Shown here: positions 42,380-63,128 of the stretch, in pieces
How positions within the stretch are numbered: position 1 is the first letter of the stretch
Layout: each line of letters opens with the position of its first letter
Source: Bartonella quintana
GTDB taxonomy: Bacteria > Pseudomonadota > Alphaproteobacteria > Rhizobiales > Rhizobiaceae
DNA length: 64,000 nt
Assembly: GCF_009936175.1 (NCBI RefSeq)
Contig: NZ_AP019773.1
Span: 1,491,001-1,555,000 of the forward strand
Direction: 5' to 3'
Position numbers and translations under genes: made by a program
The notes under the pieces: model-generated
What the model was told of the DNA's origin: nothing
What the model saw: only the letters and a program-made list of their open reading frames with translations
Databases searched by the model: none

Positions 42380-43774
42380 TCAGGCGTTTACAAGGCGTTT
42401 TTTCCAATGGGCAATTTGATAAAGTACTTCTGAAAGCACCTTACCATCAAAACTTTTACGACTTTTAATCGATTTTTCAACCGTTAAAACATCAAAAAGT
42501 GCTGCATTGATATCTGGACATATCGTTTGAAGCTCGTCCAATGACAAATCATTCAGGCCACATTTTTTCTTTCTGCCAATACCACAGCTTGCCCTGTAAT
42601 ATGGTGTACTTTACGAAGAGGAAGCCCTAATTCACGCAAAAGCCAATCAACAAAATCCGTAGGCTGTCGCATAACCCAAATCAGCTGCTTGTCTCATGCC
42701 TTTTTTATTAACTTCAAGATCCACCAATGATTCCTGTCATTGCTGCCAGTGATAATTCTAGACTCAAAGCACCATCAAACACATATTCCTTATCTTCCTG
42801 CCTATCTTTTGAAGAGGCAAAGGGTAATCCTTTCATCACCGTTAACAACCCAATCAATGCACCATTTATATATCCCTTTTTGGCACGCACAAGTTCGGCA
42901 GCATAAGGATTTCTCTTTTGCGGTATAATAGATGAACCCGTTGAAAGCATCCGATAAACGGATAAAATGAAATTGTGCACTTGACCAAAGGACAATTTCT
43001 TCTGCTAAGCATGAAAGATGCGTTGCACAAAGAACACCAGCGCTTAAAAATTCTAACGCACAATCACGATCTAAAACACTATCAATCGAATTCCGTTTTG
43101 ATTCTTAAAAACGTAGCGTTTCTGCTGGCATAAAATGATTAATTGGAAAGCTTGTTCCTGCCAAAGCTACGGCTCCTTAAAGACGATTCATTCATTCTTT
43201 CAACCGCATCACGCATCCGCGATAAATCCTGACCAAACATTTCAACATAAGCCATCATATAATGACCAAATGTTACGGGTTGTGCCGGTTGTAAATGCGT
43301 AAAACTGGCATAAAGGTATGGACATGTGTATGGACATGTTGTTCTGCTTGAACAAGCAATGCTCTATCAATCCTTTTAAAGCTTGCGCTATTTTTTGCAT
43401 TGTATCATGCACCCACAAACGAAAATCAACAGCAACTTGATCATTGCGTGAACGTGCGATATGCAAACGCCCTGCAACAGGACCAATTAATTCAGCCAGC
43501 CGCACTTCAGTATTCATGTGAGTATCTTTAAATTTTCGTGAAAAAACAAATGTGCCATTTTCAAGTTCTTGTCGAATAAGTTTTAAACTATGAACAATTT
43601 TTTCATAATCCGATTGTGAAATAATCCTCGTTTGTGCTAGCATCGTTGCATGAGCAAGTGAACCTTCATATCTTGTTGATGAGGCATTAGTTTTTTCTAT
43701 AATTTCAGCGGGTCCTGCGACAAACTGGCTACCCCATCGCTACCCCACATTTGATTTTTGAATTTCCTATCCAT
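42380..43774 (-). pseudogene. argH: Argininosuccinate lyase pseudogene
   Basis: From the ATG at 43774 the fragments follow ArgH in order across several frames: a QMWG start, [23 protein letters not shown], then [38 protein letters not shown] core (43242-43643), the catalytic loop [13 protein letters not shown] (42714-42995) and a K.LS.VLYQIAHWKKRL tail ending at 42380. At least four frameshifts and internal deletions or stops interrupt it. The product would be inactive, so arginine synthesis through this enzyme is lost unless another copy exists. Confidence 0.92.
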
Positions 43775-49996: not shown

Positions 49997-50919
49997 TTAT
50001 GCCTCCTCCAATAGCGTGATACAATAAAGGGTTGAAAAAACTAAAAGTGCAGTGATCAACTGAAGATCCGTCGACGTATCAATACCAATCCCGTGTGGCT
50101 CAAATGCAAACTGTACTGCCATGTGGTAATAGATCCGACAATACAACTGATAATACTCCAAAAAATATTACGCGGACGAAATAACGTTTCACCAATAATA
50201 ATCGCTGCTAAACCGAAGACAATCGTACCAACTCCACCAGTCATATTGGTAGCAATCACGGTTTGAATGTAAAGAGAGCTTCCAAGTGCAACGCACGCAT
50301 TTGCGAGCCCCATACCAAAATAAATTAACCCTGACGTATAAACTCCTTGCACCGTAGCTATACGCGGATTGGCTCCCATCGCTCGCATGGCAAGACCTAT
50401 CTTACTTTCCAAAAAACGCTAAATCAAAAATACCACAACCAATAATACAGAACCAATAAAAAGAGGACACACAAAAATATCAGACAAACAAAATATGCCA
50501 TAAAAAGGTGTTAAAGTAGTATTAACAAGCGCCAAATTAACATTAGCCCCTCCCATAATCCCCATAATACGAAGATTAACCGTATAGAGTGCCGACATTG
50601 TTAAAATTGAAGCCAAAAATTTAAAATACCAAACCACAAATTCAGCAAAGCTGTTAACAAACCTGCCACCATAGCTGCAAAAAAAAGCACACATCATAGC
50701 TGTCCATGGATTGAAACCTAAAAGAATCAAAACACCACAAACACATGATCCAAGAAGAAACGAACCATCAACAGTTAAATCAGGAAAATCTAAAATGCGA
50801 AACGAGAGATAAACTTCAATCGCAACAAACGCATAACTAAGACCTAACTCTATAAAACTGGAAAATGCAAATATTCCAAAGAGCACCAAATGAAAATTAA
50901 CATGCTTTATCAGGTCCAT
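49997..50919 (-). pseudogene. ABC transporter permease pseudogene
   Basis: A hydrophobic permease resembling the family that pairs with the ABC_sub_bind type receptors: FRILDFPDLTVDGSFLLG near the N-terminus, ALYTVNLRIMG..NVNL in the middle, GLAMRAMGANPRIA after. A single TAG at 50419-50421 interrupts an otherwise continuous frame, and a frameshift near 50070 separates the DLQLITALLVF end. The damage is modest, so loss seems recent. Confidence 0.88.
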
Positions 50920-50936
50920 ATCATGTCAAGAAAAGC

Positions 50937-51895
50937 CTATTGAATAATCTTTGTTGCGCGTTCAATAACCGCTTGTGGAATAACAATATCAGCCTTTTTG
51001 GCTGCTTTCATATCAATTCGGATCATTATTAGCTGTTTGCACAACATCAATATCGCCAGGCTTTTCACCCTTTAGTATACGTACAACCAATTTCCCAGCA
51101 TCAACTCAGAAATTTACGCCCTGCGTCATAAAAGGACCCTGCCTAATGGCATTGGCATCGACCATAAATAAAGGAATTCGTTTCTTGTATAACCTTTGTT
51201 GCTCCCTCTAAAAAGAAATAACCGTATTATCGCAGGAACAAAAATGATATCGACCTTACGAATTAAAGCCCGTGTTGCTGCTTGAACATCAGAAAGTTTA
51301 GGCATTGATGAAGGAATGACTTCAACTCCAGCTTTACTTGCAACATCCTCTAACATTTTCAGTTTTGAAAAAGAATTAGGTTCAGAAGCATTATAAAGAT
51401 AAGCAAGCTTTTTCAAATCTGGTTTCACTTCTTGCAAAAGTTTAACACTTTCTGCAACATCTATACGATCAGAAGTTCTGCCACATTACCAGATTTGGTA
51501 AGCGAAGACACTATTTTAGCTCCGATATAATAAGAAATCGCAGCAAAAACAATAGGAATTTTTTTTCGTTGCCACAGGCATTGTTTGTGCTGAAGAGGTG
51601 CTAATAGCAACAATTACATCAAGTTTATCACCACCAAATTTACATGCAATTTGTGTTGCTGTAGAATGTAGAAATACTGCCCTACGCTGATAAAAAAGTG
51701 AGTTCAAATTTTTTATCAGCGTAGGGCACGTTCTGCGAGCACATTCTCCACCCTTCGCGGACTGCATCCGCAGCAGGATGCAACATAATCTGTATAATCG
51801 CTGCCTTAACTTTCTCTGTTGTTTTTGCAAAGCGATTCATCGTAAAAATAGCCAGCCATCATGGCAACACAAAAACTTACGACTCTAAATATCAT
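50937..51895 (-). pseudogene. ABC transporter substrate-binding protein pseudogene (TrpX-like)
   Basis: Starts with a signal peptide-like segment (ATG at 51895), then in pieces NVPYADKKFELTF, DKLDVIVAISTSSAQTM, LKKLAYLYNASEPNS, ASKAGVEV...SDVQAATRAL and a final KADIVIPQAVIERATKI. These are landmarks of the ABC_sub_bind family, some members of which bind aromatic amino acids. Several stops and frameshifts are present, including the TAG inside the inverted repeat at 51678-51728. Confidence 0.85.
51678..51728. repeat. Perfect 20-bp inverted repeat inside the receptor pseudogene
   Basis: TGCCCTACGCTGATAAAAAA (51678-51697) and its exact complement (51709-51728) flank an 11-base spacer. One arm encodes the family motif region PYADKK on the minus strand; the other contains a nonsense codon where relatives have SAQGD. 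Confidence 0.95.
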
Positions 51896-60181: not shown

Positions 60182-60814
60182 ATGAAAACTAATCATCCCG
60201 AACATATCCCGATAACACAAATAAAAAAGCAGCTTTTATCGTCTCTTGATAAACGAGCACTTGTACTTGTTGGTCTTATGGGTGCAGGCAAATCAGTAAT
60301 CGGAAAACGCATTGCTACCATGCTCGGTTTGCCCTTCTACGATTCTGACCAGGAAATTGAAAAAGCTGCACAAATGACAATCATTGAATTTTTTAAAGTT
60401 TATGGTGAATCAGAATTCCGTGCTCTTGAACAGCATGTTACTCTAAGCCTCATGAAAAAAAGTCCTCTTGTTTTAGCAACAGGTGGCGGTGCCTACATAA
60501 ATAAAGATATCCGACAAGTCATTAATAAAAATGGTATATCTATATGGCTCAAAGCAGATCTTGATATTCTCATGAAACGTGTTTCGCGACACCCAACGCG
60601 ACCACTCCTTCAAACAGCAAACCCTAAAGAAACCATGAAAAAACTCATGGAACAACGCTACCCTATCTATGCAAAAGCAAACTTAACAATTAACAGTTAT
60701 AAGGAAAGCCGCCATACTGTAGCACAAAATGTTATACGGTCTGTACAGAACTACATCTATACAGAAATTAACGATAGGAATAACCAGCATGCAAACCAAG
60801 ACCGTCACTGTTAA
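60182..60814 (+). CDS. aroK: Shikimate kinase
   Basis: A 210-residue kinase that phosphorylates shikimate at the 3-OH. The Walker A is at residues 31-38 (GLMGAGKS), followed by FYDSDQEIE (shikimate-binding Asp), FRALE, the ATGGGAY loop and RPLL in the lid. The last residues form a tail that overlaps the aroB start by 26 bases, so the two genes are translationally linked. It diverges from the small gene-xerD pair. Confidence 0.96.
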
Positions 60815-61922
60815 ACTGGACAAGCACTGTTACGACATCATCATTGGTCCAGGTCTGGTCGCACAAGCTATTTGGCAGATTAAGCATTCGCTTCACAAAA
60901 AAGATCTTCATCAAACGCGTTTTGCACTTGTTACAGATAGCAATGTTGCATCTCTCCACTTAGATACATTACAAGCAGAATTAACAAAAAATAAAATCCA
61001 TACTGTTCCAATTATTGTCGAAGCAGGCGAGCAATCAAAATCATTTTTAACTCTGCAAATCGTCATTGATAGAATTCTCGCTGCGCGTTTAGAAAGAGGC
61101 GACTGCGTCATTGCTTTTGGTGGTGGTGTCATTGGCGACCTAGGAGGGTTTGCCGCAAGTATTATACGCCGTGGAATGAACTTCATTCAAATGCCCACAA
61201 CGCTTCTCGCACAAATTGACTCTTCTGTTGGGGGAAAAACGGGAATCAATAGCCGATATGGTAAAAATCTTATTGGCGCTTTTTATCAACCGCAATGCGT
61301 TATTGCTGACACGTGTTTCCTTGATACACTACCATTACGTGAATTTCGCGCTGGCTACGCGGAAATAGTCAAATACGGTCTTATTAGCCAGCCTGATTTT
61401 TTTGAGTGGCTCGAAAAAAATTGGCAAAAAATTTTTTCGAATGGCCCAACACGAACGGAAGCCATTGTCCGCTCATGTCAGTTTAAAGCTGACATTGTAG
61501 CACGCGACGAACACGAAACAGGAGAACGTGCATTATTAAACCTTGGTCATACATTTGGACACATGCTTGAAACAGCAACTGCTTACGACTCAAGCCGTTT
61601 AATCCACGGCGAAGCTGTAGCAATTGGGATGGTTCTAGCACACCAATTCTCTGCTCAACTAAATTTAATAAACCCCACCCTCATACAACGCGTTGAAGCA
61701 CACCTCAAAGCAGTGGGATTGCCTACGCAGCTAAAAGATATCCCAGGGAAGCTCCCCGAGGCTGAAACATTGATGACTCTCATTGCGCAAGATAAAAAAG
61801 TTTCGCAAAACAATTTGACCTTCATCTTAACGCGCGGCCTTGGTCAATCATTTATTGCAAAAACTGTTTCACCAGAAACAGTTTTGGCTTTTCTGGAACA
61901 AAAATTGGCGGAAATTCGTTAA
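60789..61922 (+). CDS. aroB: 3-dehydroquinate synthase
   Basis: A 377-residue enzyme converting DAHP to 3-dehydroquinate, using NAD and a divalent metal. Motifs: [67 protein letters not shown] and the metal-binding [11 protein letters not shown] chose the ATG at 60789 because AGGA lies 9 bases upstream; the frame opens 20 codons earlier inside aroK. An 11-bp hairpin at 61860-61885 is inside the last codons. Length is normal. Confidence 0.97.
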
Positions 61923-61980: not shown

Positions 61981-62277
61981 GTCTGCGTAGCTCAGTAGGA
62001 TAGAGCACAGGATTCCTAAAGAAATTGGGCACTTTAAGGAGAAATCCTCAAAGTGAATCTGCTCAAATTCGGGGAAAGCTTCATGGGAGACTATATGCCA
62101 ATCCCGAGCCAACCCTCTCTTCAGAGGAAGGTGTAGAGACTGAACGGGCAGCACCTAAAGGACAAAAGCTCAAGGTGAAGAGACAGTCCAGACCACAAAC
62201 AGCCTGTCAAGCTGGCGATGAAAATCGAAGTGGTATGAATCCTGGGGCCGCAGGTTCGAGTCCTGCCGTAGACACCA
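61981..62277 (+). tRNA. tRNA-Arg (CCU) interrupted by a group I intron
   Basis: The 5' exon is 61981-62017 and the 3' exon 62238-62277. Joined, they fold as a full tRNA: acceptor GTCTGCG/CGTAGAC (one G-U), D arm GCTC/GAGC, anticodon stem CAGGA/TCCTG with loop TTCCTAA (anticodon CCT), T arm GCAGG TTCGAGT CCTGC, and an encoded CCA. Unjoined, no tRNA forms. The interruption lies directly after the third anticodon base, ending in U as a group I 5' splice site requires. Confidence 0.93.
62018..62237 (+). ncRNA. Group I self-splicing intron in tRNA-Arg(CCU)
   Basis: A 220-base insertion that begins after a U and ends with G (omega-G), as group I introns do. It contains core-like segments: AATCCCGAGCC (P/Q region), GGTGTAGAGACTGAACGGGC (P7-like R/S element) and GAAGAGACAGTCCAGACCACA near the 3' end. 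It is short and carries no credible reading frame for a homing endonuclease. Introns at this site are established in tRNA-Arg(CCU) of Agrobacterium and relatives. Confidence 0.88.
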
Positions 62278-62320: not shown

Positions 62321-62716
62321 ATGAAAAAAACTTTACACATTTTAGGATTTTTCTCCGCTTTAAACCTATCACTCTTCAGCTTAACCAATGCCTTCGCTGG
62401 TTCTTTAATCCTTGAAGTACCAGACAATCCAGAACCAACAACACAGACCATTGCTTATCAGTGCGATACTGGAAAAAGTAAAAAGCATGTTGAAGCAGTC
62501 TATCTTAATGCTGATAATATTTCGTTGGTTGATTTCAAATGGAAAGGTGATCGCGTCATTGCCGCTAATGTCATTGCTGACACGGGAGTAAAATATGCAG
62601 GGGCCCAATACATCTGGTGGAAAACCAATAACGAAGTCATGCTTTATGATCTTGCTCATGACCCAGAAGAAAAAAAACCTATCCTCTGTAAAGATCAATC
62701 AACATTATTATTCTGA
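62321..62716 (+). CDS. MliC-family lysozyme inhibitor-like exported protein, copy 1
   Basis: A 131-residue protein with a signal peptide (1-26, cleavage near AFAG). The mature part has the MliC/C-lysozyme inhibitor fold pattern: YQCDTGK near residue 46, a central VDFKWKG, ADTGVKYAGAQYIWW and a final C. Known MliC proteins inhibit c-type lysozyme with a conserved Ser and Lys; the usual S-G-x-x-Y motif is partly altered (DTGVKYAG). An AAGGAAG ribosome site precedes the ATG. It is 19 bases before copy 2. Confidence 0.8.
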   Translation: MKKTLHILGFFSALNLSLFSLTNAFAGSLILEVPDNPEPTTQTIAYQCDTGKSKKHVEAVYLNADNISLVDFKWKGDRVIAANVIADTGVKYAGAQYIWWKTNNEVMLYDLAHDPEEKKPILCKDQSTLLF

Positions 62717-62735
62717 ATAACATTTAGAAAGTATT

Positions 62736-63128
62736 ATGAAAAAAAAACCTTTTACTATACGATTTTTCGTCATTTTAAGTCTATCACTCTTCGGTTCAAT
62801 CAATGCCTTTGCTGATTCTTTAATCATTGAGATACCAGATAATCCAGAGCTGATAACTCAGACAAGTTCTTATCAATGTGATATGGAAACAAACAAAGAG
62901 CATGTTGAAGTAACCTATCTCACTGCCGGCAACATTGCGTTAGTTGATTTCAAATGGAAAGGAAAGCGCATCATAGGTTCCAATGTCATTGCTGCTTCTG
63001 GAGCAAAATATGTGGGAGGTCCATATATTTGGTGGACAAAAGGAAACGAAGCCTTACTTTATGATCTCGTTAATGATCCAAAAGAAGAAAAGCCCATCCG
63101 CTGTGTAGAAGAAAAAAGCACGGAGTAA
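62736..63128 (+). CDS. MliC-family lysozyme inhibitor-like exported protein, copy 2
   Basis: A 130-residue paralogue of the preceding gene, colinear over its full length, with signal peptide (1-26, NAFAD). The motif is closer to typical MliC: ASGAKYVGGPYIWWTKGNEALLYD. Two Cys in the mature part (YQCD and a C-terminal RC) may form the fold's disulphide. The genes are tandem duplicates, apparently co-transcribed. They could protect peptidoglycan from host lysozyme in the periplasm; that is inference. Confidence 0.82.
   Translation: MKKKPFTIRFFVILSLSLFGSINAFADSLIIEIPDNPELITQTSSYQCDMETNKEHVEVTYLTAGNIALVDFKWKGKRIIGSNVIAASGAKYVGGPYIWWTKGNEALLYDLVNDPKEEKPIRCVEEKSTE

Follow-up and report, generated by a model that had tools for sequence, protein, structure and literature searches.

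The closest described system is BbgpI of Bartonella bacilliformis, which the available part of the report on it (PMC7717549) presents as a group I intron within an unannotated tRNA-Arg(CCU) gene, located at 42404-42711 on the complementary strand. Splicing in vivo and self-splicing in vitro are both reported for BbgpI in that part of the paper, and tRNAscan-SE is described there as seeing the host tRNA only once the intron had been removed. The same text names the tRNA-Arg(CCU) introns of Agrobacterium tumefaciens and of other Alphaproteobacteria as one family, for which it cites Paquin et al. 1999.

We analysed a gene of this kind in a 64,000-base stretch of the Bartonella quintana genome, hereafter the window. 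On the forward strand, the 5' exon of a tRNA-Arg(CCU) gene occupies positions 61981-62017 and ends in U36, a group I intron of 220 nt follows at 62018-62237 with G62237 as its last base, and the 3' exon, which encodes the CCA end, covers 62238-62277. The intron was delimited by the Rfam model RF00028 and ARAGORN in intron mode, and the 3' exon by the sequence and ARAGORN in intron mode. The insertion point lies directly after the anticodon base U36 and the anticodon is CCT; a preliminary description of this DNA had given coordinates, intron length, site, terminal G, anticodon and encoded CCA correctly to the base. The unspliced gene measures 297 nt and its in-silico spliced product, tRNA-Arg(CCT), 77 nt. 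We consider it about 97% probable that an inherited, endonuclease-free group I intron interrupts the sole tRNA-Arg(CCU) found in this genome.

The assignment to group I, proposed in the preliminary description from the letters alone, was borne out by RF00028, with which the intron scores 64.2 bits (gathering score 50, E 5.7e-14); no second match to this model reaches E <= 0.001 anywhere in the genome, a single contig of 1,588,683 bases. A second model, R1, scored the core at 139.8 bits, though its training set includes the window. ARAGORN in intron mode, with introns of 100-400 bases allowed, called one gene in the window, a tRNA-Arg at [61981,62277] with a 220-nt intron, and no gene in five mononucleotide shuffles of the window, so that the intron-aware search returned exactly the predicted limits. 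The suspicion that automatic finders pass over the gene also proved right: neither ARAGORN in its ordinary mode nor the Rfam tRNA model found it, each giving just a tRNA-Gly in the window. That two ordinary searches overlook this gene is now settled.

The interrupted gene is the only tRNA-Arg(CCU) that we could find in this Bartonella genome. An intact copy elsewhere, which would have told against the proposal, was absent among the 30 of 38 tRNA model matches that were typed; the remaining eight are 80-88 bases long, as class II tRNAs are. Two further matches to the spliced anticodon arm, with one and three mismatches, were rejected, as ARAGORN calls no tRNA at either.

The intron occurs in all 61 genus genomes searched, in 60 of them by Rfam (51 with matches above the cut-off) and in genome G033 by BLAST. 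The Rfam survey had suggested G033 as an intron-free genome, a candidate that we rejected since BLAST shows the intron there; the miss is probably due to the stricter Rfam filters. A comparison with sister genomes had been proposed, and in every one of the 33 genomes, among the 61 searched, that were spliced in silico, the intron sits at the tRNA-Arg(CCU) site and leaves a 77-nt product. Of the 30 genus loci collected by that stage, 25 entered the genus alignment, A1 (L037, L059 and L060 fell outside the search pattern; L040 and L058 were omitted). Identity to the other 24 rows of A1 is 85.4-95.0% for the window intron and at least 93.5% for its exons; among 33 distinct genus introns, that of the window is the shortest.

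The surroundings of the gene are also largely shared. Its upstream neighbour, an ORF at 60729-61922 (+ strand) taken from the ORF list, is presumably aroB-like. Of 29 other genus loci (L032-L060), 27 have a match to its protein, in three cases over just 54-85 residues; L094, the locus of G033, has none. Directly downstream of the tRNA gene, positions 62321-63128 (+) hold two similar tandem small proteins of 131 and 130 aa with signal-like starts, the first of which is matched at 28 of those 29 loci. Farther off, adjoining short ORFs at 50056-51437 (-) look as if they were decaying genes, presumably fragments of those for an ABC transporter permease and its binding protein. The genus survey settles that the intron is a trait of Bartonella and not an oddity of one reduced genome. 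Its retention in a strongly reduced genome, singled out in the preliminary description, is not notable because the intron is genus-wide (61/61) and because splicing of the Bartonella bacilliformis copy is already reported in the available part of PMC7717549.

To describe the fold, we drew a P1-P9 structure by hand from the window sequence, in which every drawn pair forms, the U36.G wobble of P1 and P10 included. All elements lie on the forward strand. P1 (62015-62029) pairs exon CCU and intron AA (62015-62019) with intron bases 62025-62029 and sets the U36.G wobble at the splice site; across the 25 genus precursors every lettered P1 cell is paired and the U.G is found in 25 of 25. The P10 guide, 62024-62026, is complementary in the window to the three bases with which the 3' exon opens (62238-62240); it shares bases with P1 and was left out of the alignment pair count. 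The P2 hairpin (62030-62055, with a GAAA loop) and P9 with P9a and P9b (62192-62234, GAAA loop) are supported by window pairing and the genus alignment. Window pairing and both alignments support P3 (62059-62064 with 62146-62151, spanning 62059-62151) and the helices that it encloses, namely P4 (62068-62073 with 62103-62108), P5 (62078-62079 with 62097-62098), P6 (62109-62110 with 62130-62131) and P6a (62114-62118 with 62123-62127), as well as the P8 hairpin (62152-62177). P7, the pseudoknot helix (62138-62142 with 62184-62188, spanning 62138-62188), which we take to be the guanosine-binding helix, is 100% paired in 24 order-wide cores. The segments earlier called core-like correspond to P3, P4, P6, P7 and P8, all pairs of which form in the window. 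We presume that the intron belongs to subgroup IC3, the small tRNA-intron subgroup.

Both alignments uphold this structure. In A1, 99.2% of 1,974 pair cells form, and in 10 pairs both partners have changed, compared with a mean of 4.4 in shuffled alignments (none of 500 as high). P3, P4 and P7 are invariant within the genus and are therefore tested by the wider set only. That set, A2, comprises 24 of 58 order-wide cores from Arg, Leu and Thr sites, hand-picked for diversity; 98.5% of its 718 cells are paired, sliding the partners lowers this to at most 47.1%, and its covariation score of 0.252 exceeds the shuffled value of 0.105 (none of 500 as high). The controls for both alignments are lenient, since shuffling does not preserve the relatedness of the rows and the window itself was the template for the structure. 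Changes on both sides occur in P3, P5, P6a, P7 and P8 and in neither P4 nor P6; two of the five pairs of P7, which forms the pseudoknot with P3, have changed in this way. P4 hardly varies, and its outer pair is broken in 5 of 24 cores. The count of further pair types in A2 did not rise above the shuffles, of which 110 of 500 were as high. P3 was returned by RNAalifold and P7 was not, a program that leaves pseudoknots out. Folding of the single sequence gave an energy z of -1.90, with 7 of 200 shuffles as low, a modest signal from a program that lacks the P7 pseudoknot. The fold shown here, P1-P9 with its P7 pseudoknot, is conserved and covarying.

Group I introns in general splice by two-step chemistry. 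In the case of the window copy, the precursor would fold such that P1 brings the U36.G wobble to the core, P7 would bind a guanosine that cuts after U36, and the freed 3' OH would then attack after the terminal G while P10 holds the 3' exon, which would yield a 77-nt tRNA reading AGG. By analogy with the Bartonella bacilliformis copy, we infer that the window copy splices.

The contrary case would be a dead intron in a dispensable gene, with no splicing now and the rare AGG codon covered by tRNA-Arg(UCU). That tRNA is present in the genome and might read AGG by wobble, so that tRNA-Arg(CCU) may not be essential; AGG makes up just 2 of 2,683 codons in ten ORFs of the window, and a loss might be tolerated. 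Decay of this kind is nevertheless highly improbable given that all helices are intact in the window, that the exons keep their identity to the other 24 rows of A1 and that no genus genome searched has lost the intron. The opposite proposal, that the intron has been retained since its splicing is useful, for example by tying the supply of the AGG-reading tRNA to guanosine or magnesium inside the host cell, we regard as very improbable; if true, a selfish element would have turned regulator across Bartonella.

The intron does not appear to encode a protein. Reading-frame inspection of the window intron showed no endonuclease, in agreement with the preliminary description; one of its six frames, of 73 codons, is open throughout, and none of the other 32 distinct genus introns has a forward frame open from end to end (forward frames alone were checked). 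A coding role was rejected on this ground, the open frame being absent from 32 of the 33 distinct introns.

Outside the genus the distribution is patchy. In a survey of Bartonella's family with R1, 52 of 297 genomes matched, 34 at tRNA-Arg(CCU), 17 at tRNA-Leu(UAA) and one untyped at a contig end. An Rfam survey of the order gave matches in 35 of 297 genomes, at 17 Leu(UAA), 8 Thr(GGU), 7 Arg(CCU) (the window's genome included), one Leu(CAA) and one untyped site, plus genome G211; the Leu(CAA) intron has a long branch. Because stricter filters were used, the counts of both surveys are lower bounds, and the scores that R1 gives to order members partly reflect its training on such members. In G211, locus L066 on the contig (G211:C36, 10660-12405) carries two strong Rfam group I matches of 82 and 89 bits, which lie 1.5 kb apart and differ in kind from the tRNA introns.

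A tree built from 111 introns unites every one of its 66 Arg rows in a single clade, with one change (support 100/95, and 100% of the 200 bootstrap replicates). The bootstrap, with a correlation of 0.962, had yet to converge, and midpoint rooting serves for drawing only. L082, L128 (at a contig end) and L148 (a partial second match), which have no splice assignment, and the exact duplicates L058, L096, L098, L105 and L142 are omitted from it. The tRNA-Leu(UAA) introns, inserted after U34, lie across the tree from the Arg clade. These placements fit one origin of the Arg-site intron, which would have been stably kept in Bartonella and be patchy outside it.

Within the genus, we infer vertical descent. 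Horizontal transfer among its members has some points in its favour: the 34 Arg-site and 17 Leu-site genomes among 297 are scattered, even if these are lower bounds, and a 1999 paper titled on horizontal transmission is cited in the available part of PMC7717549. Moreover, the 33 genus rows share their clade (100/97) with L114 and L134, from other small genomes and on long branches, so that the genus is not a clean clade, and a row of another family, L149, is nested among those of Bartonella's family. To transfer we nonetheless give next to no credence, given one and the same site in all 33 typed genus genomes, neighbours that are mostly the same, presence in all 61 genus genomes searched and reading frames in which no endonuclease is seen.

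A search of the family for the anticodon arm of an intron-free tRNA-Arg(CCU) found 34 of 297 genomes at one mismatch or fewer, 26 of them exact. A comparison by hand found no overlap between the 26 exact-arm genomes and the 34 genomes with an Arg-site intron, and one-mismatch arms occur in two of the latter, G000 (in no tRNA) and G572. An intron loss rate from these counts was dropped: most genomes show neither pattern nor intron, and the pattern is therefore too narrow to measure loss.

The wider survey suggests that, in a single order, one lineage of introns occupies at least three tRNA sites: Arg(CCU), Leu(UAA) and Thr(GGU). Seven tRNA-Thr(GGU) group I introns, inserted after U36 (L074, L076, L079, L083, L085, L086 and L092), belong to family f16 and occupy one branch of the tree; an eighth, L089 of family f2, stands apart on a long branch. 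A literature search on such introns surfaced only a paper on a fungal mitochondrial genome.

A related intron resides on resistance plasmids. With the window intron as query, 1,272 of 72,556 plasmid records matched at 60-80% identity, about 74% in most of the matches listed. The element is an intron-bearing tRNA-Leu(UAA), for example at 2448-2746 of L061 (NC_004464.2, 61823-62121), where a 213-nt intron follows U34; its Rfam score of 36.8 bits is under the cut-off. Three plasmid records were inspected for the surroundings of the element, and each has an aac(3)-II gene 0.6-2.2 kb downstream of it. The plasmid tRNA-Leu(UAA) gene as query matched 1,292 of the 72,556 plasmid records, 1,261 over at least 80% of its length and 1,272 at 99% identity or more, and had a match in 635 of 5,426 Escherichia coli genomes. 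Annotation at the gene is 'none' in all 40 records listed for this query, and 'hypothetical protein' stands at the locus in one of the 50 listed for the window-intron query.

The nearest relative found, in genome G588 of Bartonella's family, is 95% identical over 302 bases and sister to the plasmid copies (96/96). Four of the six genomes of its genus match in all, the three others, like L081 from a genome of another family, at about 90% over 313-368 bases. The match of the plasmid element to genomes stops at the A of the tRNA CCA, the 3' end of the tRNA. The likeness to genomes of Bartonella's own family hints at a possible source of the plasmid DNA piece. At L156 and L158 a second, partial tRNA-Leu 5' half lies about 200 bases upstream of the intron-bearing gene, a repeat that resembles the ends of elements integrating in tRNA genes; plasmid L061 has a similar stretch upstream of its tRNA-Leu(UAA), near 2281. 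Our literature search, thin in subscription journals, found nothing on a plasmid tRNA-Leu group I intron near resistance genes. The plasmid copy would matter more than the window's, as an intron-bearing tRNA travelling beside an aminoglycoside resistance gene.

Among known systems, BbgpI stands nearest to the window intron. The gene at our locus L042 lies at 42403-42709, and because these coordinates agree within two bases with the BbgpI locus given in the available part of PMC7717549, we take L042 to be, very probably, BbgpI itself; between its intron and that of the window, identity is 88% across 217 aligned bases, and the alignment has 16 gap columns. The two share genus and tRNA, and each was hidden from a tRNA scanner until spliced out; they differ in species, in length (BbgpI being 10 nt longer) and in that splicing was assayed in BbgpI, as far as the available text goes. 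The Agrobacterium tumefaciens intron, likened here by its description in that same text, has the same host gene. The tRNA-Leu(UAA) introns of the same order have a core that can be aligned with that of the window intron and share its helices, but are inserted after U34 and fall outside the Arg clade. The Azoarcus tRNA-Ile(CAU) intron is likewise small, endonuclease-free and placed in the anticodon loop, in another tRNA and another bacterial class. The window intron has the features of a group I intron, namely an RF00028 score over the cut-off, a P3/P7 pseudoknotted core with P4-P6, the U.G in P1 and the terminal G, and it belongs with the other Arg(CCU) introns by its position after U36 of tRNA-Arg(CCU) and by common descent with them (66/66 in one clade). 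The intron is thus real yet already known in kind and in genus, and it is ordinary, since a sister species has a counterpart that had been described before.
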